From contig JACVJD010000012.1 in assembly GCA_015711825.1 (NCBI GenBank), forward strand, positions 1 to 43,841: a DNA stretch of 43,841 nt, read 5' to 3'. Each line of letters starts with the position of its first letter. Positions within the stretch are counted from its first letter, which is position 1. A program made the position numbers and the translations under genes. Origin of the DNA: Candidatus Solincola daggyaiensis (lineage in GTDB: Bacteria > Actinomycetota > Geothermincolia > Geothermincolales > RBG-13-55-18). The notes below the pieces were generated by a model. That model did no database searches and was not told the origin of the DNA. It saw only the letters and a program-made list of their open reading frames with translations. Positions 6,039-41,470 of this stretch are shown here, in pieces.

Positions 6039-7787
6039 TTACCATTCGCCCAGCGCCCTCAGTTCGCGCTGCACGCGGTCCAGCAGGTCGGATATCTTCT
6101 CCTCCGCGTCCTCCGAGGGGATCTCCTTCATGCGCGCGATCTCGTTCTTGATGGGGTGCTCCGTGGCCTGGCGCAGGGGCACCCCCTGCACCAGCACCTC
6201 CTCCAGGCAGTCGTAGTAGGTGAGGATGACCTTGAGCATGAGGTAGGCCTTGCGCAGGGAGCAGAAGGCGTCGGTGTCGGAGAAGGCGAACTGCTGCAGG
6301 AAGTCCTCGCGCAGCATGCGCGTGGTCTCCAGCACCGCCTTGGCGAAATCCGGCAGGGCGTCCGGCCCCACCAGCTGCACGATCTCCTGCAGCTCCACTT
6401 CCTTCTGCAGCAGGCTCATGGCCTTGTCGCGCATGGCCCTCCAGTCCTCGGCCACGTTCTTGGTGTACCAGTCCTGGATCTGGTCAAGGTAGAGGGTATA
6501 GCTCTTGATCCAGCTGATGGCCGGGAAGTGGCGGCGATAGGCGAGGCTGGTGTCCAGGGCCCAGAAGGCGCCGGTGATGCGCAGGGAGTTCTGGGTCATG
6601 GGCTCGGAGAAATCTCCCCCCGGGGGCGAGACCGCCCCGATGGCGGTTATGGAGCCCATGCGCTCGTCGCTTCCCAGGCACACCGCCCGCCCGCAGCGCT
6701 CGTAGAAGTCGGCCAGACGGGTGGCGAGGTAGGCGGGATAGCCTTCCTCGCCGGGCATCTCCTCCAGGCGCCCCGATACCTCGCGTAGGGCCTCCCCCCA
6801 GCGCGAGGTGGAATCGGCCATGAGGGCCACGTTGTAGCCCATGTCGCGGTAGTATTCCGCCAGGGTGATGCCGGTGTAGATGGAGGCCTCCCTCGCCGCC
6901 ACCGGCATGTTGGAGGTGTTGGCCACCAGGATGGTGCGCTGCATGAGGGGTACCCCCGTCTTGGGATCGATAAGGCTGGGAAATTCCGCCAGCACCTCGG
7001 TGATCTCGTTGCCCCTCTCGCCGCACCCTATATATATCACGATATCCGCGTCCGCCCACTTGGCGAGGGTGGTCTCGGTCACCGTCTTTCCGGTGCCGAA
7101 GCCCCCGGGGATGATGCTGTAGCCGCCCTGGGCGATGGGGAAGAAGGTGTCGAGTATGCGCGTGCCGGTGATGAAGGGAACGGTGGGGTTCTCCTTCCTC
7201 CTCACCGGCCTGGGCACGCGGGCGGGCCAAGTCTGGTGGAGCTTGATCTCCGCGCCGCCCTCCAGGACCACCACCGTCTCGTCCACGGTGAATTCGCCTT
7301 CTTTCACCTCCGCCACCCGTCCGGACATCCCCGGCGGCACCATGATGCGGTGGGTGATGTGGGTGGTCTCCTGCACCTCTCCCACGATATCGCCCTCCTG
7401 CACCTCGTCCCCCACCTCCACCATGGGCTGAAAGGCCCACTTGCGGTCGCGGGGGAGGGCCACGGTGGAGACGCCGCGCACCACGAAGTCGCCGTAGTTC
7501 TCGGCGATATCCGTCAGGCGCCTCTGAATGCCGTCGTAGATGGAGGAGAGCAAGCCGGGCCCCAGCTCCAGCAGGAGCGGCTCCTCGGTGCATTCCACCT
7601 TCTCGCCCACCCTGAGTCCCGAGGTGTCCTCGTAGACCTGCACGATGGCCACGTCCCCGTCCAGGCGCACCACCTCGCCGATGAGTCCGAGCTCTCCCAC
7701 CCTGGTGATATCGTACATCTTGGCGCCGGACATCCCCTCCGCGCTGACCACGGGTCCGGATACCTTGGCAATGCTTCCTACGATCAT
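6039..7787 (-). CDS. atpA: V/A-type ATPase catalytic subunit A
   Basis: ATP-hydrolysing or -synthesising subunit of the rotary ATPase. The 582-residue length is normal. Walker A is GGFGTGKT at residues 228-235 (commonly GPFGSGKT, so Pro to Gly and Ser to Thr). The long 'non-homologous region' typical of A subunits precedes it (residues about 115-190, with [15 protein letters not shown]). [13 protein letters not shown] and the [20 protein letters not shown] motif follow. ATG at 7787 has GGAGAG about 7 bases upstream. Direction (synthesis or pumping) cannot be read from sequence. No F-type ATPase gene is in the window. Confidence 0.98.
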
Positions 7788-8228: not shown

Positions 8229-9326
8229 TCACCCGCCCCTCTGCTCCTCGCCGAAAAGCACCATCTCCTTGCGTATCTGGGACTCTATGAGCCCGATGCT
8301 CTTGCCCCTGACGATGATACGCAGGTTGGTTATCTCCAGGTACTTCCTCCACATGTACTCGATGATCACCCCGACGCCCAGGGGGTCCTTGGACATCTTC
8401 AGGCAGGTCCTGATGATGTGCTTCTGCATCTCGTCCTCGAAGACGCTCTCGCCCCTCTCCTCGAAGGCCTTCCAGGCGTTGAGGAGGGCATCCTTGTAGG
8501 GCATGCGGTGCGACAGCCTTTCGTAAACCTGTTCCGGCTGTCCCAGGGACATGATCTTGGCGAACTCCCCCGCGTCAGCGATGGTTCCTCCGGGGACGAA
8601 ATAACCCTCGATGCGGACATCTTTGAGCTCCAGGCCGCAGATGCGCATGAGGGTGGCGATGTTCACGGCGTCCACCTCCATGACCATCACCTCACGCACC
8701 AAGGCGGTGTCCGCGTCCCCACCCTCGAGGATCTTACCCAGTTCCTGGTAATGGAAGCGGTCCAGTGCCAGTTCAAGGATGGAGAGGTCATGTTCATGAA
8801 GGTACTGCGCGAGGTGGGCCATGATCGCCCTGCCGTAGGGTATGGGCCACTCTCGTCCCAGCACCACCATGGCGTCTATGCTCGCACGGAGGTCGGGTTG
8901 GCCTATGATCTCCTCCAGGGTCACCAGGTCTATGGCCCCGATGGGCACCAGGTTCCTGCTTATCTCCGCCTTGGGGACGAGGGCTCGCATGCCCCTGAGT
9001 ATGGTCTTGAGGTTGTAGGGATCCCAGCGCGAGAGCAGGGCTTTGACCAGCTCCTCCGGCCTGCCCACGAAGAACTCCTTTATCTTGGAGAAGGTCCGCA
9101 CCAGGTTGCGGTTGAAGGCGCGGTCGATGGTGGTGGGGCGCGCCCCCTCGAGCATGAAGTGCTCGATATCCGGGCCGTACTCGGTGTTCTCCAGCACCGC
9201 GAGGGCCTGGTTGTAATCCGGCGCCTCCAGCAGCTCCTTATAGACGTACGGTTCCAGCAGGCGCCCGGACATGGCGCGCACCCGCGCGTTGGCGTAGCTG
9301 TAATCCTTGAGCGGTACCTGAACCAT
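8229..9326 (-). CDS. atpC: V/A-type ATPase subunit C (AC39/d-type socket)
   Basis: The funnel-shaped socket that joins the central shaft to the membrane K ring. The 365-residue all-helical protein begins MVQVPLKDYSYANARVRAM, matching the Y-x-x-x-R-x-R-AM start of this family. It includes three related helical repeats (for example the EELVKALLSRWDPYNLKTILRG segment). The frame is open further upstream to 9434, but that part has no family resemblance and overlaps subunit E; ATG 9326 is preferred and has GAGG a few bases ahead. It follows subunit E after 79 bases. Confidence 0.92.
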   Translation of the reverse strand: MVQVPLKDYSYANARVRAMSGRLLEPYVYKELLEAPDYNQALAVLENTEYGPDIEHFMLEGARPTTIDRAFNRNLVRTFSKIKEFFVGRPEELVKALLSRWDPYNLKTILRGMRALVPKAEISRNLVPIGAIDLVTLEEIIGQPDLRASIDAMVVLGREWPIPYGRAIMAHLAQYLHEHDLSILELALDRFHYQELGKILEGGDADTALVREVMVMEVDAVNIATLMRICGLELKDVRIEGYFVPGGTIADAGEFAKIMSLGQPEQVYERLSHRMPYKDALLNAWKAFEERGESVFEDEMQKHIIRTCLKMSKDPLGVGVIIEYMWRKYLEITNLRIIVRGKSIGLIESQIRKEMVLFGEEQRGG

Positions 9327-31054: not shown

Positions 31055-32635
31055 TCAAAGGGCCCGCCCGCGGGCGCTCCCCATGCCCAGCAGGCGGTAT
31101 ATCTCATCCATGCGCAGGGATGAACGCACCACGCGCGAGAGGCGGCCCAGGCGCTCTTCCCGCACCAGCTCCCAATCATGCGCCTCCCGCGAAAGCGGCC
31201 CCGTAGGCAGGAGTCCGCGCCGCCTCCATAGGGCGGAGATAAAGCCTTCCCGCACGCAGCGATTCTCGAAAAGCCCATGCAGGTAGCAGCCGAAGACGGG
31301 TAAGTACTCGTGCAGCGCCCCTTCCTCCACCTCCACCCTCGCGCCGTCCCTCTCCACGATACGCAGGGGAGGCACTCCCGCGGATAGCGTGCGTCCCATG
31401 TGTATCTCGTAGCCGGAGAGCGGAGGCGAGACGGCATCCAATCCCAGGAAGGGTATGACCCCCACCACCCTTGCCCTCACGCGGTGGGTACGCTTCTCCC
31501 CCGTCAGCACCGTGGTCACGGGCAGAAGCCCCAGGCCCGTCGCCTTTCCGGGAACCGATTCCACCCCCTGCGGGTCCTCCACGTACTCTCCCAGTATCTG
31601 GTAACCGTTACAGATACCCACGATGGGGACGCCCCTTTCCGCCAGGCGAGCCACGCCGGCGGCCAGGCCGCACTCCCGCAGCCAGGCGAGGTCGCAGAGG
31701 GTGCTCTTGGAGCCGGGGATGATCACCGCGTCCGGCTCCCCCAGCCGGGACGTGCCGGAGACGTAGCGCACCCTCACCCCCTCCTCGCGCTCCAGGGGCT
31801 CGAAGTCGGTGGCGTTGGAGAGGTGAGGCAGGCGCAACACCGCCAGGTCCAGCGGCCCGCCGCCCTCCACGCGGGGCGCGGAGGCGCTTAGCGCCTCCAG
31901 GTTCACCGTGTCCTCCTCGTCCAATCCCAGGTCGTTCAGGTAGGGGATGACCCCCAGGACCGGTTTTCCCGTCCTCGCCTCCAGGGACCGCAGCCCATCC
32001 TCCAGAAGCCTCATCTGGCCGCGGAAACGGTTGACGACCAATCCCTTTACCGCCTTCCTCTCCCGCCAGGGCAGAAGCTCCAGGGTCCCCAAAAGCGAGG
32101 CGAAGACGCCCCCGCGGTCGATATCTCCCACCAGGAGCACCGGGGCTTCCGCCGCCATGGCCATGCGCATATTGGCGATATCCCGGTCCGCCAGGTTGAT
32201 CTCCGCCGGGCTCCCTGCCCCCTCCATGATCACCACCTGGAAATCTCGACGCAGCCTCTCCAGCGCCTGCAGGGCGGCGGCGACCATTCTATGGTGGTAA
32301 AGCCGGTGCTCGTCTGCCCGCATGTACCCCAAGGGGGCCCCGTTGAGGATGACCTGAGACCCGCGGCCCGAGGAGGGTTTCATAAGAACGGGGTTCATGT
32401 CCGTATGCGGCTCCACCCCCGCCGCCAGGGCCTGCAACACCTGTGCGCGCCCCATTTCCCCGCCCCCGGCGGACACGCCGGAATTCAGGGACATGTTCCA
32501 GGCCTTGAAGGGGGCCACGCGCACCCCGTCCTCCCTGAGGATGCGGCAAAGCGCCGCCACCAGCACGCTCTTCCCCACATGGGACGAGGTGCCCTGCACC
32601 ATCAAGCATCTCGCCGGGGATCCCCCGCCGCTCAT
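31055..32635 (-). CDS. cobQ: cobyric acid synthase (glutamine-hydrolysing)
   Basis: Amidates side chains b, d, e and g of adenosylcobyrinic a,c-diamide using glutamine and ATP. The 526 residues have the N-terminal dethiobiotin-synthetase-like ATPase (GTSSHVGKS at 15-23) and a C-terminal class I amidotransferase-like domain with Cys342 (IVGICNGYQILG) and His453 (CYLHGLFEN). The residue after the nucleophile is Asn where many homologues have Gly. It overlaps the BtuD-type gene as ATGA, so uptake and synthesis are co-translated. Also called cbiP. Confidence 0.97.
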   Translation of the reverse strand: MSGGGSPARCLMVQGTSSHVGKSVLVAALCRILREDGVRVAPFKAWNMSLNSGVSAGGGEMGRAQVLQALAAGVEPHTDMNPVLMKPSSGRGSQVILNGAPLGYMRADEHRLYHHRMVAAALQALERLRRDFQVVIMEGAGSPAEINLADRDIANMRMAMAAEAPVLLVGDIDRGGVFASLLGTLELLPWRERKAVKGLVVNRFRGQMRLLEDGLRSLEARTGKPVLGVIPYLNDLGLDEEDTVNLEALSASAPRVEGGGPLDLAVLRLPHLSNATDFEPLEREEGVRVRYVSGTSRLGEPDAVIIPGSKSTLCDLAWLRECGLAAGVARLAERGVPIVGICNGYQILGEYVEDPQGVESVPGKATGLGLLPVTTVLTGEKRTHRVRARVVGVIPFLGLDAVSPPLSGYEIHMGRTLSAGVPPLRIVERDGARVEVEEGALHEYLPVFGCYLHGLFENRCVREGFISALWRRRGLLPTGPLSREAHDWELVREERLGRLSRVVRSSLRMDEIYRLLGMGSARGRAL

Positions 32636-33897
32636 GCCTCCACCTCCCCGGCCACCAGCGCCAGCAGCTCGCCGCGGCCGCTCACCTCCAGCGCGCCCTC
32701 CTCCCTCAGAAGGCGGTAAAGCTCGGTGGCGGCGCCTCCCGCGTAATCCCTCTCCTCGATGGGCCGTGGCGAGTAGAGGAGGACCCTTTTCCCCGCCCGC
32801 AGCGCCGTGCGCGCCGCCTCCAGGTTGAGCAGGTTACCGGGGCCGAAATAGAGGTCCGTGACCACCACCACCTCGGCCTCCGCCACCAACTCCAGGTTGG
32901 CGCGGTGGGCCTTCTCCGAGATGCGGGAGAAAGGCGCCTCCAGGGCCATGCGGATCTCCAGAGCCCGGCCCACCTCCTCGTCGCCGTCCCCGGTGTTGAG
33001 GGTCCCCGCGGTGACGTAAAAACCCGCCTCCAGAAGCTCGCGCATGAGGGATGCCCCGCTGGCTCCACCGCAGATGAGGTGGACTTTGCTCACCTCGGCA
33101 TCGCCGGATCGGCGTCCCATGGGAAGGAAGACGATGTGCGGCCTCTCGGTGACCGCGTGGCGAGTCACCATGGCGCCCACGCCGAACACCTCCTTGAGCA
33201 TGGAGACGGTGAGCACCTCTTCCGGGGCGCCCCGCATGAATTCCCTCCCCCCGCGCATCACCACCAGCCGGTCACAATATTGCGAGGCCAGGTTGAGGTC
33301 ATGCATGACCATGACCACCGCCAGCCCGCGCCCGCACATCTCCGCCAGCAGCTCAAGGAGGGAGAGCTGGTGGCTGATATCCAGGTGCTGGGTGGGCTCG
33401 TCCAGCAGCAGCAAGCCGGTTTCCTGTGCCAGGGCCTGGGCGATGATCACTCTCTGGCGCTCCCCGCCCGAAAGCTCGGTCACGGGACGGTCGGCCAGAT
33501 GCCAGACGTTGGCTTTTTCCATGGACAGGCGCGCCTGCTCCAAGTCACGCGGTCCCGCCGCCTGCAGCCTGCCCAGGTGGGGGTTCCTCCCCATGAGCAC
33601 CACCTCCAGGGCGGTGAAGGCGAAGGAGGCGGCCGTCTCCTGGGGGACCATGGCCAGGTCCCTGGCCACCTCGCGCGCCGGCAGGCGGTAGATATCCTCC
33701 CCTCCCAAGAGCACCACCCCGCGGCGGGGGCGCAGCGCGCGCGACAGGGCTTTCAGGAAGCTGGTCTTTCCCGAACCGTTGGGCCCTATGACCCCGATGA
33801 AATCCCCCGACCTCACGGTGAGGCTTATCCCCGCCACCACCTCGTCGTCGCGGTAGGCGGCATGCAGGTCCTTAGCTTGCAGCGTCTTCCATTCCAT
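32632..33897 (-). CDS. btuD: cobalamin/iron-complex ABC transporter ATPase with a C-terminal Rossmann-like extension
   Basis: ATP-binding subunit for the BtuC permease. Residues 1-255 form a standard FecE/BtuD ATPase: Walker A GPNGSGKT (38-45), signature LSGGE (142-146), Walker B LLLLDEP (162-168), H-loop MHD (198-200). Residues 271-421 are an extra alpha/beta domain beginning KVHLICGGASGASLMRELLEAG, with a glycine-rich turn, AEVVVVTDLYFGPGNLLNLEAA and RVLLYSPRPIEERDY. I recall similar fusions in other anaerobes but know no function. The start ATG 33897 is set by GGAGGG upstream; the frame runs open another 315 bases as a shadow of btuC. Confidence 0.93.
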   Translation of the reverse strand: MEWKTLQAKDLHAAYRDDEVVAGISLTVRSGDFIGVIGPNGSGKTSFLKALSRALRPRRGVVLLGGEDIYRLPAREVARDLAMVPQETAASFAFTALEVVLMGRNPHLGRLQAAGPRDLEQARLSMEKANVWHLADRPVTELSGGERQRVIIAQALAQETGLLLLDEPTQHLDISHQLSLLELLAEMCGRGLAVVMVMHDLNLASQYCDRLVVMRGGREFMRGAPEEVLTVSMLKEVFGVGAMVTRHAVTERPHIVFLPMGRRSGDAEVSKVHLICGGASGASLMRELLEAGFYVTAGTLNTGDGDEEVGRALEIRMALEAPFSRISEKAHRANLELVAEAEVVVVTDLYFGPGNLLNLEAARTALRAGKRVLLYSPRPIEERDYAGGAATELYRLLREEGALEVSGRGELLALVAGEVEA

Positions 33898-33917: not shown

Positions 33918-35015
33918 TCAGTTCACGCCGTGCCTGCTCCGCTTGAGCAGGTAGATGAAGAAGGGGGCCCCGAAGAAAGCGGTGACGATGCCCACCGGCA
34001 GCTCCTTGGGCGCGATCACCGTGCGCGCGATGGTGTCCGCGAGCACCAGGAAGAGTCCGCCTCCCAAGATGGAGCCGGGGATGAGAAAGCGGTGGTCGGG
34101 CCCGGTGAGCAGGCGCACGATGTGGGGGGTCATAAGGCCCACGAAGCCTATGATCCCGGACACCGACACCGCGGCCCCCACCACCAGGGAGGCGATCACG
34201 ATCATGGTCCACTTGAAGCGTTCCGTCTCCAGCCCCAGCTGCGCCGCTCTCTCCTCCCCCAGCATGAGCAGGTTGAGGTCGCGGGCCATGAACGCGGCGG
34301 CGGCGGCTCCCACCAGCATGAAGGGCAGCACCGCCAGCACCATGTCCCAGTTCCCGGTGCCCAGACCCCCCATGAGCCAGAAGAAGATGTTGTGCATGCG
34401 GTCCTCGCTCACCACCATGAGCAGGGAGACGATGGAGGCGAGGAAAGAGGAGAGGGCGATCCCCACCAGGAGAAGGGAGGCGATGGAGGCGCGCCCTCCG
34501 GCCCTGGCGATGATATAGACCGTGAATACCGCCAGCAGCGATCCCGCGAAGGCGAAGAGGGGGATGGCGGAAAGCCCCCCCAGCCCCGCTTTGATGCCGA
34601 AAAAGAAGGCGATGGTGGCGCCCAGCGCGGCCCCCTGCGAGGAGCCGATGATGCTGGGGTCGGCCATGGGGTTGCGGAAGAGGCCCTGGAAGACGGCTCC
34701 CGCCAAGGCCAGCCCCATGCCCACCAGCAAGGCCAGCAGAACGCGAGGGAGGCGCACGGAGATGATGATGGTTTCCTGGGTGGGCGTCCAGGTCGCGTCC
34801 ACCAACCGGCCCAGCAGGGGAAGCCGGGATAGGATGATGCGGAAGGAAGTGGCGAGGGGGACGTAAACCGCCCCCAGGGCCACGGCCACCATCACCGCCG
34901 CCAGCGTCGCCAGGGCCAGGCAGGCGAGCACCGCGGCACGCCGCCGCCGCAGCGCCGCCAGCCTCGCCGTCACCCCTGCCGTATCTTCCATATTATCCCA
35001 TCTATATCTTTTCAT
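33918..35015 (-). CDS. btuC: cobalamin/iron-complex ABC transporter permease (FecCD family)
   Basis: Membrane channel subunit, a dimer in the complex. The 365 residues have about nine to ten transmembrane helices; typical motifs are LPRVLLALLVGMGLALAGAVFQGLFRNPMADPSIIG near the N-terminus and GFVGLMTPHIVRLLTGPDHR, the coupling-helix region that touches the ATPase. The start may be ATG 35015 or ATG 34991; neither has a strong ribosome-binding site. It is 102 bases after btuF and 20 before btuD. Cobalamin rather than siderophore is inferred from neighbours. Confidence 0.93.
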   Translation of the reverse strand: MKRYRWDNMEDTAGVTARLAALRRRRAAVLACLALATLAAVMVAVALGAVYVPLATSFRIILSRLPLLGRLVDATWTPTQETIIISVRLPRVLLALLVGMGLALAGAVFQGLFRNPMADPSIIGSSQGAALGATIAFFFGIKAGLGGLSAIPLFAFAGSLLAVFTVYIIARAGGRASIASLLLVGIALSSFLASIVSLLMVVSEDRMHNIFFWLMGGLGTGNWDMVLAVLPFMLVGAAAAAFMARDLNLLMLGEERAAQLGLETERFKWTMIVIASLVVGAAVSVSGIIGFVGLMTPHIVRLLTGPDHRFLIPGSILGGGLFLVLADTIARTVIAPKELPVGIVTAFFGAPFFIYLLKRSRHGVN

Positions 35016-35117: not shown

Positions 35118-36047
35118 TCATTCCTCAGGGTAGAGGGCCGCGTGCACCGCTTCCAGGCCGTCGATGAGCCGCGGCCCCGTGCGGTAAAGCAGGTTTTCCT
35201 CGATAACGTAAACCCTTCCGCTCCTCACCGCCTCCATGCGATCCCATCCCGGGCGGGAGGTTATGTCCCCGGGCTTGAACATGGAGCCGCTTCCCACCAG
35301 GTAGACCTGGGGATTCTGGGACATGAGCGCCTCCACGCTGAACTCGTAATAGTCGCCGGATTCGGTGTCCCCTATGTTCTCGCCCCCCGCCAGGCGGATG
35401 AGGTCGGAGATGACGCTGCCCTTGCCCACCGTCCACACGTTGTTCTCGTAGTAGATCTCGAAAAAGACCCGCGGCCTCGCTTTGCCCGCCGCTTCCATCT
35501 CACTCACCCTTCGGGCCACCTTCACCGCCCTCTGGTTCATGTCCGTGACCACTTCCCTCGCGCGCTTGTTCGCGCCGGTGAGCTCCCCCACCTCCAGGAT
35601 GGTGGCCAGGGTCTCGTCGAAGGTGGTGGGGTTGACCGCGTAAACCGTGAGACCCAGTTCCTCCATGCGCCCGAGCACCTCGGCCTGCACCCCGCCCGTG
35701 GCCAGCACCAGGTCCGGCTGCAACGCCACGATGGCCTCGAGATTGGGGGTGGTGAAGGTCCCGATCTTCTCCTTTTCCAGCGCCTCCTCGGGGTAGTCGC
35801 AGTATTCGGTAACCCCCACCACTTTTTCCCCCAACCCGAGGGCAAAAAGGATCTCCGTGCAGGCGGGGGACACGGAAACGACGCGCGAGGGCGCCTCCTC
35901 CAGGCTCACCTCTCGACCCAGGTCGTCCGTGAACACGGCGGGTCTGGCGGCGTTCTCCTCTTTCTGCGCGCCTCCGCAGCCCGCGAGGATGATCGTCGAA
36001 ACCAGGACCATTGCCGCCAGGGCGGCGGCGACGATTTTCTTTCCCAC
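35118..36047 (-). CDS. btuF: cobalamin-binding lipoprotein of the ABC transporter
   Basis: Extracytoplasmic substrate-binding protein. From GTG 36047 (AAGGAGG 8 bases upstream) it has 309 residues, with a basic N-terminus, a hydrophobic core and lipobox LAGC, so it should be lipid-anchored. RVVSVSPACTEILFALGLGEKVVGVTEYCDYPEEA is typical of cobalamin-type rather than siderophore-type binding proteins; the long central helix (ATILEVGELTGANKRA) joins the lobes. The same frame is open 90 bases further up to an ATG at 36137, but that start lacks a signal-peptide beginning. Confidence 0.92.
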   Translation of the reverse strand: MGKKIVAAALAAMVLVSTIILAGCGGAQKEENAARPAVFTDDLGREVSLEEAPSRVVSVSPACTEILFALGLGEKVVGVTEYCDYPEEALEKEKIGTFTTPNLEAIVALQPDLVLATGGVQAEVLGRMEELGLTVYAVNPTTFDETLATILEVGELTGANKRAREVVTDMNQRAVKVARRVSEMEAAGKARPRVFFEIYYENNVWTVGKGSVISDLIRLAGGENIGDTESGDYYEFSVEALMSQNPQVYLVGSGSMFKPGDITSRPGWDRMEAVRSGRVYVIEENLLYRTGPRLIDGLEAVHAALYPEE

Positions 36048-36138
36048 TTCGGCTTCCTCCTTCTCGATCACTGCATCCGCCTTCCGAAGTCGCGTGACGG
36101 TCCCACCGACTCCCGGTCTCTCATCGAAAGAATGCATG

Positions 36139-37302
36139 TCAAAGACCCATTTCCTTGCGCACCTCCTCCAGCGCCGCCACCAGGCGACGGTTTTCCTCGG
36201 GCCTCCTCACCGCCACACGCAGAAAGCCGCTTCCCAGTCCCCGGAAATCGCGGCAATCGCGCACCAGTATCCCCCTCCTCCCCAGCGCATCCGCCACCTC
36301 GCCGGCGCCCGCTGCCTGTGGCGCAAGGCGCAGGAGCAGGAAGTTTGTGCGGGAGGGGAAGACCTCGAAGATGCCGGAGTCCGCCAGGCAGGTCTCCAGC
36401 TCCTCCCTCCAGGCCGCTACCGCGGCGCGCGTCTCCTCCAGGTAAGACCGTTCCTCCAGGCAGGCCAGGGCCGCGGCCTGCGCCGCCACGTTCACCCGCC
36501 AGGGCACCGCCGTCTCCTCCAGGCGGGCGACGAGCCCTTGCGGACCGGCGAGCCAACCCGGCCCGCGCAGCCCCGCGAGGGCGAAACTCTTGGTGAAGGT
36601 GGATATGACCACCAGCCCTTCCTCCCCCGCGCGGGCGAGAAGGCTCGCCTCCGCCGCCTCCCGCAGGGGGCAGAAGGACATGAAGCTCTCGTCCACGGCC
36701 AGGATGCCCCCGGCGGCCCGGCAGGCCTCCAGCACGGGGATCAATTCCTCCCTCCCGTAAAGCCGGCCCGTGGGGCTTGAGGGGTTGCAGAAGAAGGTCA
36801 GTTGCGATCGCGCCGCCGCCTCCGCCAGCTTATCCGCTCGCAGCGAGAAGCGGTCATCGGGTGACATAAAATGGAAAGATGTCTCGGCGCCCGCGAGGGC
36901 CGCCGCCCGCTCGTACTCCCCGAAGGCGGGCGCGGCCACCGTCACCTTGAGGCGCCCTTGTCTCGCGTCTCCTTCCCCGCGCCCGCCTCCCCTCCTCTTC
37001 CCGGCTAACGCCCCCATTTGCCGCGCCAGGTGGTGGATGAGCTCGCTGGACCCGTTGCCCAGCGTGAGCTGCCCCTCTTCCAGGCCCAGGTGGAGGGCTA
37101 GGGCAGCCCGGAGTCTTTCCGCGCCCGGCTGGGGGTAACGCGCGGCCTCGCGCAGGGCGGCATGCGCCGCCTCCAGGGCGCGCGGGGGAGGTCCGAGGGG
37201 ATTGAGATTGGAGCTGAAATCGAGAAAGCCGCCGGGGGTCAGGCCGTAACGCTCCGCCGCCCACTCCAGGTCGCCCCCATGGGCGGGAAACCCCTTGCTC
37301 AT
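36139..37302 (-). CDS. cobD: L-threonine-O-3-phosphate decarboxylase (CobD-type PLP enzyme)
   Basis: Supplies (R)-1-amino-2-propanol phosphate for the nucleotide-loop linker. It is a fold type I PLP protein of 387 residues related to histidinol-phosphate aminotransferase, with Schiff-base Lys238 in STFTKSFALAGLRG, Asp204 in LAVDES and FFCNPSSPTGR. HGGD and FLDFSSNLNPLGPP at the N-terminus are hallmarks of CobD/CobC proteins. Residues about 103-117 form a Gly/Arg-rich insertion. Start ATG 37302 has GGGAGG upstream and overlaps the cbiB stop by 4 bases; the frame continues further but only as a shadow of cbiB. HisC activity cannot be excluded from sequence alone, but context favours CobD. Confidence 0.92.
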   Translation of the reverse strand: MSKGFPAHGGDLEWAAERYGLTPGGFLDFSSNLNPLGPPPRALEAAHAALREAARYPQPGAERLRAALALHLGLEEGQLTLGNGSSELIHHLARQMGALAGKRRGGGRGEGDARQGRLKVTVAAPAFGEYERAAALAGAETSFHFMSPDDRFSLRADKLAEAAARSQLTFFCNPSSPTGRLYGREELIPVLEACRAAGGILAVDESFMSFCPLREAAEASLLARAGEEGLVVISTFTKSFALAGLRGPGWLAGPQGLVARLEETAVPWRVNVAAQAAALACLEERSYLEETRAAVAAWREELETCLADSGIFEVFPSRTNFLLLRLAPQAAGAGEVADALGRRGILVRDCRDFRGLGSGFLRVAVRRPEENRRLVAALEEVRKEMGL

Positions 37303-38291
37303 CTCCCGCCTCCCCGCCTCTCGGCCGCCCACGCCAGCGCAAGCGCCAGGCACAGTCCCAACGCCGATGCGGCGCGCAGCAGCCTCACCGCTTCCCGCAC
37401 CTGCGCGGTCTTCAACTCCCTGCAGCCCTCGCCGATGCTCGGGTAAGCATGCAGCTCGCCGCGGTACCTCACCGCTCCCCCAAGCTCCAGCCCCAGCGCG
37501 CCCGCGAAGGCGGCCTCGGGATGGGCGCTGTTGGGGCTGGCATGGCGAAGCCGGTCGCGCAGCCCGATCCTCCATGCCCCCGCCCCGTCCAATCCGCATA
37601 GGGCCGCGGCCGCCGCTATGAGGGGAACGGACATCCGGGCGGGCGCGAAGACGGCGAGGTCGTCCAGGCGCGCCGGGCACCACCCCAGGTGGAGGTGGCG
37701 CTCGTCCTTGTGCCCGAGCATGGAGTCCATGGTGGAGATCGCCTTGAAGGCCAGCGCCGCCGGGGCGCCCCCCACCGCCGCCCACACAAGGGGCGCCAGC
37801 ACCCCGTCGCAGTAATTCTCCGCCACCGACTCCACCACCGCCTTGCAGATATCGCTCTCCTGCAGGAGCTCGGTGTCCCGCCCCACCAGCGCGCGCAAGT
37901 GCGACCTCGCCGCGTCCACCTCTCCCCGCTCGAGGTCCTCCGCCACCCTCAAGGCGCTTCTTTCCAGGTCCTTCCAGGCGAAGGCGGTGTACAGGAGCAG
38001 CGTCTCCGCTACCCCCGGCCACGGCCCCGCCGTCAGCACGCGTCCCGCCGCCCAGCTCCCGCCCGCCATCACCGCCGCCAGCAGGCAGCCTCGCAGTCGC
38101 GCCCCGCGGTCGCCCGCGTGGCGTTGCCCCAGCACCGTTTCCAGCCCCTCGATGCATCTCCCCATCAGGCGCACGGGATGGGGATATCCCTCGGGGTCGC
38201 CCAGCAGGGCATCGAGGGCGAAGGCGGCGGCGACGTGACGCGCCCTCGAGGGTTTCCGGCTCTCTGAACGCCTCTTCCCCACCTTCACCAC
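37299..38291 (-). CDS. cbiB: adenosylcobinamide-phosphate synthase
   Basis: Integral membrane enzyme that attaches the aminopropanol (phosphate) arm to cobyric acid. The 330 residues have four to five membrane segments and the family motifs ALDALLGDPEGYPHPVRLMG near the N-terminus, ESVAENYCDGVLAPL, STMDSMLGHKDERH and NSAHPEAAFAGALG. The start at 38291 is GTG with weak support; a few codons downstream are equally possible. It lies 186 bases after cobS and shares an ATGA overlap with cobD. Confidence 0.96.
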   Translation of the reverse strand: MVKVGKRRSESRKPSRARHVAAAFALDALLGDPEGYPHPVRLMGRCIEGLETVLGQRHAGDRGARLRGCLLAAVMAGGSWAAGRVLTAGPWPGVAETLLLYTAFAWKDLERSALRVAEDLERGEVDAARSHLRALVGRDTELLQESDICKAVVESVAENYCDGVLAPLVWAAVGGAPAALAFKAISTMDSMLGHKDERHLHLGWCPARLDDLAVFAPARMSVPLIAAAAALCGLDGAGAWRIGLRDRLRHASPNSAHPEAAFAGALGLELGGAVRYRGELHAYPSIGEGCRELKTAQVREAVRLLRAASALGLCLALALAWAAERRGGGR

Positions 38292-38477: not shown

Positions 38478-39272
38478 TCAAGTCAAAAGCAGCTCGGGTA
38501 CGCGGCTGGCCAGCAGCAGCAGGGCCAGCGCCTCGTAGAGCATCCCCGCCGCCCCCACGCAGTCACCCGTCACCCCGCCCAGGGCCCGGTTGAAATAGGA
38601 TCCCGCCAGCTCCGCGAAGGCCAGCGCCGAGAGAGAGAGCACCGCCGCCAGCAAGGGGGCGCGGATCACGAACACGAAGCACCCCGCCAGCACCGCCAGG
38701 GTGACCGCGCTCGCCGCCCCCAGGGCGGTATAGCTCGCCCCCGCGATAAAGGCCGCCCCCGTGCCCTCCGCGCGCGCGTAGGGAAAGCGCACGCAGAGAT
38801 AGCACATCACCCACCTCCCCAGCACCGGGAAGACCAGGAGCGCGGCCCGGCGCAAATACCCCGGAGAGGCGGCCACGCGCGCGGGAAGGGCGTAGAGAGC
38901 GGCCAGTTCCACCAGCAGAAAGAGCGCCAGGGCGGTCACGCCCAGCGCTCCCGACCGCGCGTCCTTCATGATGCGCAACCTCTCTTCCCGCGACCTCCTT
39001 CCCCAGAAGGCGTCCGCCACGTCCACGAGGCCGTCGTGGTGCAACCCCCCCGTGAGCAAGGCATAGACCGCCAGCCCCAGGGCGGCGGAGAGGAAATGGG
39101 ACACGCGCGGGAAGGCCCGCGCGCACGCCCAGTCGGCGAGCGCCAGAGAGCCCCCCAGAAAGACGCCCACCAGGGGGAAGTAGGCCACCGAGGCGGCCAA
39201 GCCGCCGTCCTTCCGTCGCGGAGGAAGGGGCAGCGCGGTCAGGAAGCGGAAGGCGTCCAGCACGGCAGCCAT
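38478..39272 (-). CDS. cobS: adenosylcobinamide-GDP ribazoletransferase (cobalamin synthase)
   Basis: Joins alpha-ribazole (phosphate) to adenosylcobinamide-GDP, closing the lower loop. It is a 264-residue membrane protein with several helices. FRFLTALPLPP near the N-terminus and the LTGGLHHDGLVDVADAFWG motif, with its acidic and His residues, are diagnostic; GALGVTALALFLL and the late DCVGAAGM segment fit too. It lies 103 bases after cobT. Confidence 0.96.
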   Translation of the reverse strand: MAAVLDAFRFLTALPLPPRRKDGGLAASVAYFPLVGVFLGGSLALADWACARAFPRVSHFLSAALGLAVYALLTGGLHHDGLVDVADAFWGRRSREERLRIMKDARSGALGVTALALFLLVELAALYALPARVAASPGYLRRAALLVFPVLGRWVMCYLCVRFPYARAEGTGAAFIAGASYTALGAASAVTLAVLAGCFVFVIRAPLLAAVLSLSALAFAELAGSYFNRALGGVTGDCVGAAGMLYEALALLLLASRVPELLLT

Positions 39273-39375: not shown

Positions 39376-40467
39376 TCACCCCTGCTCCCCTTCCGGGCCC
39401 GATACCCCCGCTTCCGCGAAGGTGGCCATCTCGGAGAGTATCTTCAGGGCCGCCTCCACCAGGCTGAATCCCAGCGCGGCCCCCGTGCCCTCGCCCAAGC
39501 GCATGTTGGCCCTGATGATGGGGTGGAGACCCAGGCGCTCCAGGATCACCGCGTGTCCCCTTTCCACCGAGAGGTGCGAGGCGAGCATGAAATGGGGGGC
39601 CAGGGGATGAAGCCCCGCCGCTATCAGCGCCCCGGCGCCGGAGATGAAGCCGTCCACCAGCACGGGGCGCCGGGCGGCGGCGGCGGCGAGCATCACCCCG
39701 GCGATGGCGCCTATCTCCAACCCCCCCACTTTGGCCAGCACGTCCAGGGCGTCGGAGGGATGGGGGCGGTTAACCTCCAAAGCCCTCCTTATCACCCCCA
39801 CCTTGCGCTCCAGGCCCTCGTCGTCCAGCCCGGTGCCCCGGCCGGTCACCTCCCGGGGGTCCATGCCCGCCATGGCAGCGGTGATGGCGCTCGCCGCGGT
39901 GGTGTTGCCTATGCCCATGTCCCCGGCGGCCAGCATCCAGGCGCCCGCCTCCAGCTCCTCCTCCGCCACCGCTATGCCCGCCTCCACGCAGGCCCGCGCC
40001 TCCTCCCGCGACATGGCCGGGCCCTCGGACATATCTGCGGTGCCGTGCCTGACCTTGCGCACCGTGAGCCCTTCCGCCTCCACGTCCACGGCCACTCCCA
40101 CGTCCACCACCCGCACCTCCGCCCCCACGTGGCGGGCGAGCACGTTGATGGCCGCTCCCCCGGCGAGGAAGTTGTGCAACATCTGGGCGGTGACGTCGCG
40201 GGGGTACAGGCTGACCCCCTGCGCGGTGACCCCGTGATCGGCGGCCATCACCAGCACCACCTTGCGCCCCGGCCGCGGCATCGCCTCACCGGCGATGCCC
40301 GCGACTTTGATGGAGATTTCTTCCAGCGCCCCCAGCGCCCCCGGGGGCTTGGTGAGCTGGTCCTGTCTCGCGCGGGCTTGCCCCATCGCCGCCCCGTCCG
40401 GCTCCCCGATCCTCTTCAGCGTTTCCTCCAGCCTTCCCATGACCTTCCTCTCCTTATCGCCGCTCAC
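39376..40467 (-). CDS. cobT: nicotinate-nucleotide-dimethylbenzimidazole phosphoribosyltransferase
   Basis: Activates the lower-ligand base (DMB or another benzimidazole) to alpha-ribazole phosphate. The 363 residues have LTKPPGALGALEEI, a VVLVMAADHGVTAQGVSLYP motif, the GDMGIGNTTAASAI loop and the catalytic glutamate region MRLGEGTGAALGF near the C-terminus. No DMB-synthesis gene (bluB or bza) is in the window, so the native lower ligand is not known. It follows cobU after 22 bases. Confidence 0.97.
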   Translation of the reverse strand: MSGDKERKVMGRLEETLKRIGEPDGAAMGQARARQDQLTKPPGALGALEEISIKVAGIAGEAMPRPGRKVVLVMAADHGVTAQGVSLYPRDVTAQMLHNFLAGGAAINVLARHVGAEVRVVDVGVAVDVEAEGLTVRKVRHGTADMSEGPAMSREEARACVEAGIAVAEEELEAGAWMLAAGDMGIGNTTAASAITAAMAGMDPREVTGRGTGLDDEGLERKVGVIRRALEVNRPHPSDALDVLAKVGGLEIGAIAGVMLAAAAARRPVLVDGFISGAGALIAAGLHPLAPHFMLASHLSVERGHAVILERLGLHPIIRANMRLGEGTGAALGFSLVEAALKILSEMATFAEAGVSGPEGEQG

Positions 40468-40489: not shown

Positions 40490-41062
40490 TCAAGGCTTCA
40501 GGCGCAGAGGCAGCCCCGCCGCCACCAGGTAAACCTCGTCCGCCCGCTCGGCCAGGCGCTGGTTGAGCCTTCCCGCCAGGTCGCGGAAGACGCGCCCCAG
40601 GCGGTAGGGAGGCACCACCCCCATCCCCACCTCGTTGGCCACCACTATGAGCTCCGCGGCGGCCGCTCGCACGCGCTCCACCAGCTCCAGCGCCTCGGCT
40701 TCCACCTCCTCCATGCGGCGCAGGACCTCCTCCTCGGGCATGCTGCCCTCCTCTTCCGCCGGCCAGTCCAGGCCGGCATGCGCCATGAGGTTGGACAAAT
40801 ACACCGTGAAGCAGTCCATGAGCGCGAGATCCCCTTCACGGGGGAGCCCCGGCAGCTCGGTGCCGCCCGCGAGCTCCAGGGTCACCCAGCCCTGGGGACG
40901 CTCCTCGCGGTGCCTTTTTATGCGTTTTTCCATCTCCTCGTCCCCCGGCCAGGCGGTGGCGAGGAAACACACCCGCCGCCCCGACGCGGCGGCCAGACCC
41001 TGGGCGAAGGAGCTCTTGCCGCTGCGCGCTCCTCCCAGCACCAGCACCATGCGGTGTTCCAT
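40490..41062 (-). CDS. cobU: adenosylcobinamide kinase / adenosylcobinamide-phosphate guanylyltransferase
   Basis: Phosphorylates adenosylcobinamide and transfers GMP to it. The 190-residue protein has a P-loop GGARSGKS (10-17), His51 in the IKRHREERP segment matching the guanylylated histidine, and VVANEVGMGVVPPYRLGRVFRDLAG, the CobU signature. It is the first gene after the cobalamin riboswitch, with a leader of about 150 bases between the terminator hairpin and ATG 41062. Its presence allows salvage of cobinamide brought in by BtuFCD. Confidence 0.97.
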   Translation of the reverse strand: MEHRMVLVLGGARSGKSSFAQGLAAASGRRVCFLATAWPGDEEMEKRIKRHREERPQGWVTLELAGGTELPGLPREGDLALMDCFTVYLSNLMAHAGLDWPAEEEGSMPEEEVLRRMEEVEAEALELVERVRAAAAELIVVANEVGMGVVPPYRLGRVFRDLAGRLNQRLAERADEVYLVAAGLPLRLKP

Positions 41063-41253: not shown

Positions 41254-41289
41254 CCCGTCTCGCCAGGTTTCTCCCTGAGGCGGAGAGCT

Positions 41290-41470
41290 GACTGGCGCCC
41301 TCCGGGCAGGTCTTCTGACTCCTGGATCACCGTTCCGCCCCTCCTTCCCGACCCATGGCCAGTGGATAAGCGGGGCCTCGCTCCCCAGTCACAGCGGCGC
41401 CACCGTGCCGGACTCTCACCGGCTTCCCTCTTCGCCTTTACAGGACCCGGACGGCACTGACAAAGCCGGC
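41290..41470 (-). promoter_or_regulatory. cobalamin riboswitch
   Basis: The minus strand carries the conserved core: GGGAAGCCGGTGAGAGTCCGGCACGG (near 41427-41402), then GCCGCTGTGACTGGGGA, the GCCACTGG-like element (CCACTGGCC near 41365-41357), and the B12 box AGTCAGAAGACCTGCC at 41320-41305. Order and spacing are those of the class binding adenosylcobalamin. It leads the cobU-cobT-cobS operon and probably all genes to cobQ. The exact P1 ends were not resolved. Confidence 0.95.

Follow-up and report, generated by a model that had tools for sequence, protein, structure and literature searches.

MetN and ModC are importer ATPases with C-terminal ligand-binding regulatory domains, and in the passages of the source cited here the C2 domain of MetN and the C-terminal domain of ModC differ in fold from each other (PMC10710835). 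Going by the same passages, their extra domain is placed C-terminal to the ATPase, the same position as in the btuD-type protein described here. MetN and ModC bind other ligands, and because their folds differ and we claim no homology with the btuD domain, the likeness is an analogy of position only. For corrinoids, the cited passages describe a Btu-like ABC transporter that imports cobalamins in Halobacterium (PMC1447603). The models of E. coli-type BtuD (NF002981, 253 positions) and FecE (NF008409, 255 positions) have the ATPase domain in common with our btuD, whereas they end without its C-terminal domain.

The window (the whole stretch of 43,841 nucleotides that was analysed) contains the following gene cluster.

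31055..32635, minus strand: cobQ, cobyric acid synthase, downstream of btuD (TIGR00313, 480.5 bits, cut-off 309.9)
32632..32635, minus strand: four bases, ATGA, shared by the btuD stop and the cobQ start (sequence)
32632..33897, minus strand: btuD-type gene, 421 aa, ABC ATPase plus modelled C-terminal Rossmann-like domain (sequence, Pfam, NCBIfam, motifs)
33918..35015, minus strand: btuC-type permease, upstream of btuD (FecCD, E 1.9e-99)
35118..36137, minus strand: btuF-type substrate-binding protein (Peripla_BP_2, E 2e-38)
36139..37230, minus strand: cobD-like aminotransferase, 5' end not fixed (TIGR01140, 254.7 bits, below the cut-off of 290.55)
37299..38291, minus strand: cbiB (TIGR00380, 194.2 bits, cut-off 165.9)
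38478..39272, minus strand: cobS (TIGR00317, 113.6 bits, cut-off 110)
39376..40467, minus strand: cobT (TIGR03160, 441.9 bits, cut-off 319.3)
40490..41062, minus strand: cobU (NF004469, 184.1 bits, cut-off 161)
41288..41465, minus strand: cobalamin riboswitch, upstream of cobU (RF00174, 109.4 bits)

The B12 riboswitch upstream of the gene cluster does not appear in the first-pass annotation of this DNA, which had placed btuD between btuC and cobQ and coupled to the latter, as the flanking genes and the ATGA overlap bear out.

The btuD-type ATPase shares an operon with a FecCD permease and a Peripla_BP_2 binding protein (Pfam). The top NCBIfam model for the permease is BtuC, below its cut-off (317.8 of 461 bits), and the binding protein reaches 106 bits with the BtuF model, below the cut-off of 234. 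In our reading the importer encoded here is BtuFCD-type, and we propose a corrinoid as its probable substrate on the grounds of the B12 riboswitch and the cob genes in the cluster.

The btuD-type frame runs on the minus strand from an ATG at 33897 to a TGA at 32632 and encodes 421 residues. ABC_tran covers residues 23-170 (Pfam, E 1.3e-28), and the NCBIfam heme/FecE models extend to residue 256. We located Walker A at residue 38 (GPNGSGKT), the Q-loop at 85, LSGGE at 142, Walker B at 162, the D-loop at 171 and the H-loop motif at 198. The ABC motif set is complete, as expected of a BtuD/FecE-type importer ATPase, so a full ATPase does precede the extra domain, as had been annotated. The parts of the protein are as follows.

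33127..33897, minus strand: ABC ATPase domain, residues 1-257, end approximate (ABC_tran, NCBIfam, motifs)
33097..33117, minus strand: linker, residues 261-267 (below pLDDT 50 when the whole protein is modelled)
32635..33108, minus strand: modelled C-terminal Rossmann-like domain, residues 264-421 (AlphaFold2; PRK09536 over about the first half)
33055..33069, minus strand: glycine loop after strand 1, GGASG, residues 277-281 (alignment conservation)
32980..32988, minus strand: DxD after strand 2, Asp304 and Asp306 (alignment conservation)
32824..32844, minus strand: GxGNxxN after strand 4, residues 352-358 (alignment conservation)
32746..32751, minus strand: Arg-Asp after strand 5, residues 383-384, a long-form trait (alignment conservation)

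AlphaFold2 with 14 relatives models residues 264-421 at a mean pLDDT of 94.4 and a pTM of 0.90. Numbered within the domain, the strands span 8-12, 31-38, 53-57, 80-83, 108-112 and 140-142, and helices lie in between. In the full-length model, residues 261-267 are the sole stretch of at least three residues with pLDDT below 50. This model has a pLDDT of 91.1 and a pTM of 0.67, so both folds are confident, whereas how the two domains sit relative to each other is uncertain. In these models, btuD residues from about 264 to 421 are a separate domain with a Rossmann-like order of elements. The first-pass annotation had recognized a distinct alpha/beta domain behind the ATPase, and the predicted fold agrees with it; all the peptides that it cited are found in the btuD translation. 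It had placed the domain at 32632-33084, where 33084 is slightly late, and we put the start at base 33108 (the first strand begins at residue 271).

We aligned 92 domain sequences (alignment A4; residues numbered within the domain). At the glycine loop, G14 is conserved in 90/92, G16 in 84/92 (Ala in this protein) and G18 in 74/92. The DxD pair is nearly fixed (D41 92/92, D43 89/92), and the counts for GxGNxxN are G89 86/91, G91 71/92, N92 90/92 and N95 82/92. The Arg-Asp pair separates two forms of the domain: the long form keeps it (R 62/71, D 68/71), whereas the short form does not (R 1/21, D 0/21) and has also lost the match to the C-terminal part of the domain. Because the short form is devoid of this pair, the pocket differs between members. 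When positions are ranked by conservation, 20 of the top 30 fall in the crest (65 of 158 residues, just past the strand ends; p 0.0017, a flattering value because the 13-residue segments of the crest were set by hand after the alignment was viewed), where the almost invariant polar residues D41, N92 and D43 also lie. The conserved residues thus lie at the usual ligand site of Rossmann proteins, and ligand binding is likely judging from this pattern.

The model that reaches into the domain is NCBIfam PRK09536 / NF007082, 'corrinoid ABC transporter ATPase', a haloarchaeal model. It aligns to btuD residues 5-349 (E 5.5e-98), spanning domain residues 4-86, about the first half, and matches 92/92 domain-only sequences at E 0.1 or better (this domain at 3.7e-11), two haloarchaeal ones included. 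At 328.7 bits, below the curated cut-off of 537 bits, our btuD falls outside the PRK09536 equivalog and is only related to it. By sequence similarity, it belongs to a wider PRK09536-like long BtuD group with a homologous C-terminal domain. On this domain all Pfam families stay below their cut-offs, and our literature searches (listings, and some papers in passages) found no description or proposed function of it, although it is common (7 to 32% of the genomes sampled in three phyla) and lies mostly by corrinoid genes or riboswitches. This agrees with the first-pass annotation, which gave no assigned function, while PRK09536 means that the domain is not wholly unrecorded.

Domain matches occur in 90/396, 97/299 and 22/297 sampled genomes of the three phyla, two of which were picked for an already known carrier; at least one match is false (genome G337, presumably MurC, as named from its own sequence), and the weak ones were verified in part. 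Out of the matches obtained, we hand-picked 109 sources and dropped three that had no domain match (L139, L212, L213), leaving 106 loci: 83 of the long form (82 distinct) and 23 of the short form, one of the latter broken (L198). By profile, 105/106 loci (82/83 long, 23/23 short) have the ATPase ahead of the domain in the same reading frame, and in the exception (L210) the ATPase motifs stand in the adjoining frame. A stricter motif pattern detected the ATPase in 62/83 long and 10/23 short loci; it is too strict, and the profile was used instead.

A search for the domain as a stand-alone protein, suggested in the first-pass annotation, found no intact free-standing copy in the three phylum samples, where 11 matches lie in open frames shorter than 330 aa and the others were counted as fused by frame length unless the locus was fetched. 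The 11 are cut by a contig end, broken or reduced to remnants, and in one of them a single in-frame stop parts the domain from its ATPase. G234 and G175 lie at contig ends, and G654, G673, the second copy of G402 and G692 are broken or cut by a contig end. The second match of G642 (56 aa) and G883 (69 aa) hold the C-terminal part only, with no ATPase in the 0.9-1.3 kb translated; the second match of G698 (79 aa) begins at base 5 of its contig, and G875 (contig end) and G954 complete the set.

The fusion of ATPase and domain is general, in many bacteria and haloarchaea. Similar fusions had been mentioned for other anaerobes; fusions are indeed widespread, whereas 'anaerobes' is too narrow, since the domain is carried by haloarchaeal plasmids and by Rubrobacter, and these organisms are aerobes. 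With the domain of this protein as the query, there was no match in plasmids at 1e-5 and none among PDB sequences (phmmer, E 10).

The first-pass annotation had named a predominance of such fusions outside corrinoid loci as grounds for refutation, and the loci do not refute it: 63 of the 82 distinct long-form ones lie near a B12 riboswitch or a corrinoid gene from the bait set, and 19 have neither. The gene baits matched 0/73 control loci, which are shorter (about 3.4 kb each). The baits were drawn from the window and from several of the loci under test; some matches are therefore self-matches, and other B12 genes were missed. The riboswitch counts are minima, as the Rfam scan covered this DNA, the bait-less loci and L133 and left out L134. 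Because their source genomes are related, many of the 106 loci do not count as independent, and gene calls are noisy in the high-GC loci. Elsewhere, the gene after btuD is often cobU, cobA or another, and it is cobQ in several relatives. Across 396 genomes, cobQ (E <= 1e-40; draft genomes may miss genes) is present in 39/89 with the domain and 116/307 without it (p 0.33). The two occur independently, which counts against a specific tie to synthesis; the proposed phylogenetic profile against cobQ thus gave no association.

On this basis, our favoured reading, with a probability of roughly 0.4, is that btuD encodes the ATPase of a BtuFCD-type importer whose Rossmann-like domain senses a cytosolic ligand and regulates uptake. 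Each ATPase subunit would carry one C-terminal ligand-binding domain, and a small cytosolic ligand would be sensed at the crest of the sheet by the glycine loop, DxD, GxGNxxN and RD. Binding may alter the ATPase cycle and throttle uptake, much as MetN and ModC are regulated by their own, unrelated C-terminal domains. The putative ligand would probably bear a nucleotide: either a nucleotide itself, or a corrinoid recognized via its adenosyl or nucleotide-loop part. If true, the sensor would provide protein-level feedback on B12 uptake, besides the RNA switch.

We give a small chance to a corrinoid-handling module in the importer, namely a Rossmann/SLOG-like metal-cofactor carrier, or a sensor of the entering corrinoid or its nucleotide part. 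Bacteria and archaea would then have a type of B12 carrier inside the cell that belongs to no named family we could find.

The affinities of the fold bear on this and on the next two readings. SLOG membership was our first idea, which began with a motif resemblance; it was weakened by the hhalign preference for F420_oxidored over LDcluster4 and DprA. The first profile gave 46% for LDcluster4, 45% for DprA and 93% for F420_oxidored, and the 92-sequence profile gave 64%, 24% and 92%, against 97% for the positive control, LDcluster4 with DprA. The F420_oxidored match is collinear over 111 columns, whereas the LDcluster4 match covers only 47-48. The comparison sets took in 20/20 LDcluster4, 19/20 DprA and 23/30 F420_oxidored loci, the others being missed by the motif filter, and hmmsearch with these sets gave weak matches only. 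On the SLOG side, 3/92 members match LDcluster4 (best 6e-5), three DprA sequences align with the domain profile in its second half (E 0.03-0.04), DprA is the top PDB match in Foldseek, and ranks 1-4 in the viral library are deoxyribosyltransferase and SLOG models. The domain may share its type of Rossmann-like fold with the SLOG superfamily. The GGxGTLxE motif seen in LDcluster4 sequences is absent from it, and GxGNxxN stands at the presumed aligned place. Both NAD(P)-type and SLOG-type affinities are present, and neither is decisive. Weak Pfam matches, such as TPP_enzyme_N in 5/92 members (best 4e-4), are taken as noise.

A tethered carrier, which would take the corrinoid from BtuC and pass it to CobA, CobU or CobQ much as the molybdenum cofactor (Moco) carrier protein holds its metal cofactor, would explain the hand-over of a scarce, reactive cofactor after import, and we regard it as rather improbable. 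Moco carrier and binding proteins, which like DprA are SLOG members, stand at ranks 1 (joint first), 13, 21 and 23 among the best 50 matches listed by VIA-align (6y01: Z 11.6, rmsd 4.2, 139 of 165 aligned; 2iz5, 2iz6 and 2iz7: Z 10.3-10.4, 131-136 aligned), and cobQ, cobU or a CobA family gene adjoins btuD in various loci. However, many NAD(P) enzymes equal these Z scores, the sequence profiles favour the NAD(P) type, no known corrinoid-binding motif was seen in the domain, and its occurrence is independent of cobQ.

We are just as doubtful that the domain is an enzyme processing corrinoids with NAD(P)H, such as a reductase readying the imported corrinoid for adenosylation. The domain has the glycine loop, strand order and collinear profile match in common with NAD(P)-binding Rossmann proteins (F420_oxidored, PF03807), and its second strand is followed by the Asp pair. 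In the Thermacetogenium locus (L032), the gene after btuD is of the CobA family. A ketol-acid reductoisomerase (4kqx) matches about 50 residues at the glycine loop and Asp pair (E 0.033, then 0.0035 with hmmsearch), a match that we do not rely on because 4kqx is a cofactor-switched mutant. On the other hand, F420_oxidored, the best Pfam NAD(P) family on this domain, scores 12.5 of 21.6 bits, below the cut-off, and Pfam finds no catalytic partner domain besides the ATPase.

A ligand-free structural or assembly module would suit the constant position after the ATPase and the shortened C-terminal part of the short form, but near-fixed polar residues at a Rossmann crest are hard to account for without a ligand, and we consider it unlikely. 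The first-annotated view, that the domain couples uptake specifically to synthesis through CobQ, draws on the ATGA overlap here and on the relatives in which cobQ comes next, and it is made very improbable by the independent occurrence of domain and cobQ and by the varied downstream genes. In haloarchaea, the copies adjoin btuC, and in one case cob genes lie nearby.

The btuD-type gene of the window encodes an ATPase that is followed, after a short linker, by a separate alpha/beta domain. The relevant features are as follows.

32632-33897, minus strand: btuD-type gene, 421 residues; BtuD/FecE-type ABC ATPase with canonical motifs plus the C-terminal alpha/beta domain
Residues 261-267 of BtuD: linker between the ATPase and the C-terminal domain; short, low confidence in the full-protein model
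41288-41465, minus strand: cobalamin riboswitch (109.4 bits to RF00174); it precedes the cobU-cobT-cobS-cbiB-cobD-btuF-btuC-btuD-cobQ cluster

Modelled alone on a 15-sequence alignment, the domain reached a pLDDT of 94.4 and a pTM of 0.90. The full-length BtuD model gave a pLDDT of 91.1 and a pTM of 0.67, so that both folds are predicted with confidence and the mutual arrangement of ATPase and domain is not. The stop codon of btuD and the start of cobQ share bases as ATGA. The genes upstream of btuD on its strand include btuC, btuF, a cobD-like gene, cbiB, cobS, cobT and cobU. The names btuC, btuF and cobD are tentative, since none of the three reaches the cut-off of its NCBIfam model.

The extra C-terminal domain, noticed in the first-pass annotation, proved to be real and general beyond the window. 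It is matched once in its own genome, in 18 of 59 relatives (own genome included) and in 90 of 396 genomes of its phylum, one of these (G337) being a match to MurC. In the phyla of a Syntrophaceticus and a Desulfuromusa locus, 97/299 and 22/297 genomes match, respectively. Named loci come from Ca. Geothermincola, Rubrobacter, Thermacetogenium, Syntrophaceticus, Desulfuromusa, an Armatimonadetes bacterium and Thermoflexus, and two haloarchaeal plasmids also carry the domain. The ATPase precedes it in the same frame at 105 of 106 examined loci. The score and reach of the profile match divide the loci into 83 (82 distinct) with a long form of the domain and 23 with a short form, in which the match ends at domain residue 79-128. 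At the domain locus L219 (3245-3733, reverse complement of the fetched stretch), one in-frame stop parts the ATPase from a short-form domain. The stop could reflect a natural split or a sequencing error, or the gene may have become a pseudogene.

PRK09536, the NCBIfam model of a corrinoid ABC transporter ATPase, matches all 92 domain-only sequences, its match ending about mid-domain; the window protein scores 328.7 bits, well below the cut-off of 537. Long BtuD proteins of this kind were already known, and the window BtuD adds a new bacterial member whose extra domain has no assigned function. The open literature searched (including PMC545781, PMC10710835, PMC3541065, PMC8305020, PMC4285132 and PMC1447603) showed no description of the domain; subscription papers may mention the extension.

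The domain has a predicted Rossmann-like order of elements. Twenty of its 30 most conserved positions fall within 65 residues that directly follow the ends of strands (p 0.0017, for segments chosen by hand once the alignment had been seen). Near-invariant Asp304, Asp306 and Asn355 of BtuD, with a glycine loop, occupy in the model the ligand-binding place of Rossmann proteins, a putative site judged from anatomy. By analogy, the domain is most likely a cytosolic ligand-sensing module on the importer ATPase. C-terminal domains in the equivalent position of MetN and ModC bind the transported substrate; substrate there props the ATPases apart in MetN and keeps the transporter from cycling in ModC (PMC10710835, in part). 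The likeness to the window BtuD is one of regulatory logic only. Its wide distribution, the conservation at a likely ligand site and its accessibility to experiment make the domain moderately interesting.

In rival readings, the domain would act as a tethered carrier of a cofactor, as an enzyme that depends on NAD(P)H, or as a structural module. DprA is the top PDB row in Foldseek (E 8.5e-5), with NAD(P) enzymes making up most rows after it, and in VIA-align a Moco-binding protein and an NAD-dependent dehydrogenase share a Z of 11.6, 36 of the best 50 rows having Z 10.0-11.5. Profile comparison favours F420_oxidored (93% and 92%) over LDcluster4 (46% and 64%) and DprA (45% and 24%); as controls, LDcluster4 gave 97% against DprA and 7% against F420_oxidored. 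Against this preference, hmmsearch of PDB sequences returned a ketol-acid reductoisomerase over the first third of the domain (E 0.0035) and three DprA sequences over its second half (E 0.03-0.04). Weak Pfam matches are scattered among the 92 members (F420_oxidored 8, TPP_enzyme_N 5, LDcluster4 3). We therefore call the domain a divergent Rossmann relative and place it in neither group.

A corrinoid-synthesis bait gene, i.e. a query from the window or a few loci of the set, occurs at 41 of the 82 distinct long-form loci. A bait gene or B12 riboswitch occurs at 63 and neither at 19, the riboswitch scan covering only part of these loci. Control loci, centred on other genes from related genomes and shorter, had a bait gene in 0/73 cases. 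The proposed tie to cobyric acid synthesis through CobQ is weak: over 396 genomes cobQ showed no association with the domain (39/89 with it vs 116/307 without; Fisher p 0.33), so that the domain keeps company with the importer and not with that synthesis. At L024, the gene after btuD (8486-9157) encodes a Diphthami_syn_2 (PF01902, DUF71) PP-loop protein, from a family of which one subgroup is tied to B12 salvage in PMC3541065. At L179, cobalamin riboswitches flank btuD on both sides (2151-2441 and 7348-7638; 97.9 and 97.6 bits).

Of the aligned sequences, 68/71 long-form and 0/21 short-form ones have the Asp of the RD pair, and 70/71 and 1/21 have a strand-1 histidine (residue 273; 33079-33081, minus strand). 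This histidine might reflect different ligands in the two forms. Among the 23 short-form loci, 10 match the CbiK and seven the CobN bait, both taken from two of these loci and their families checked. Short-form btuD adjoins a CbiK-type chelatase or CobN at L133 (1133-3061), L199-L204, L206-L209, L214 and L215; together they may form a separate transport and metal-handling system. By our own reading, a frame at L200 (4525-6231) holding the ATPase C-terminus and short-form domain continues into CobN-like sequence, and the next gene matches the CobN bait; this is a fusion or an assembly fault. L134 (MT835545.1), labelled 'Bacteriophage sp.', has btuF, btuC and CbiK bait matches beside short-form btuD, and we suspect a bacterial sequence inside a phage collection. 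At L133, the C-terminus of the chelatase gives a weak match to NEAT (33.6 bits vs a cut-off of 32.8), and the locus also has a cobalamin riboswitch close to a TwoAYGGAY RNA of the opposite strand (404-612, plus; 807-976, minus).
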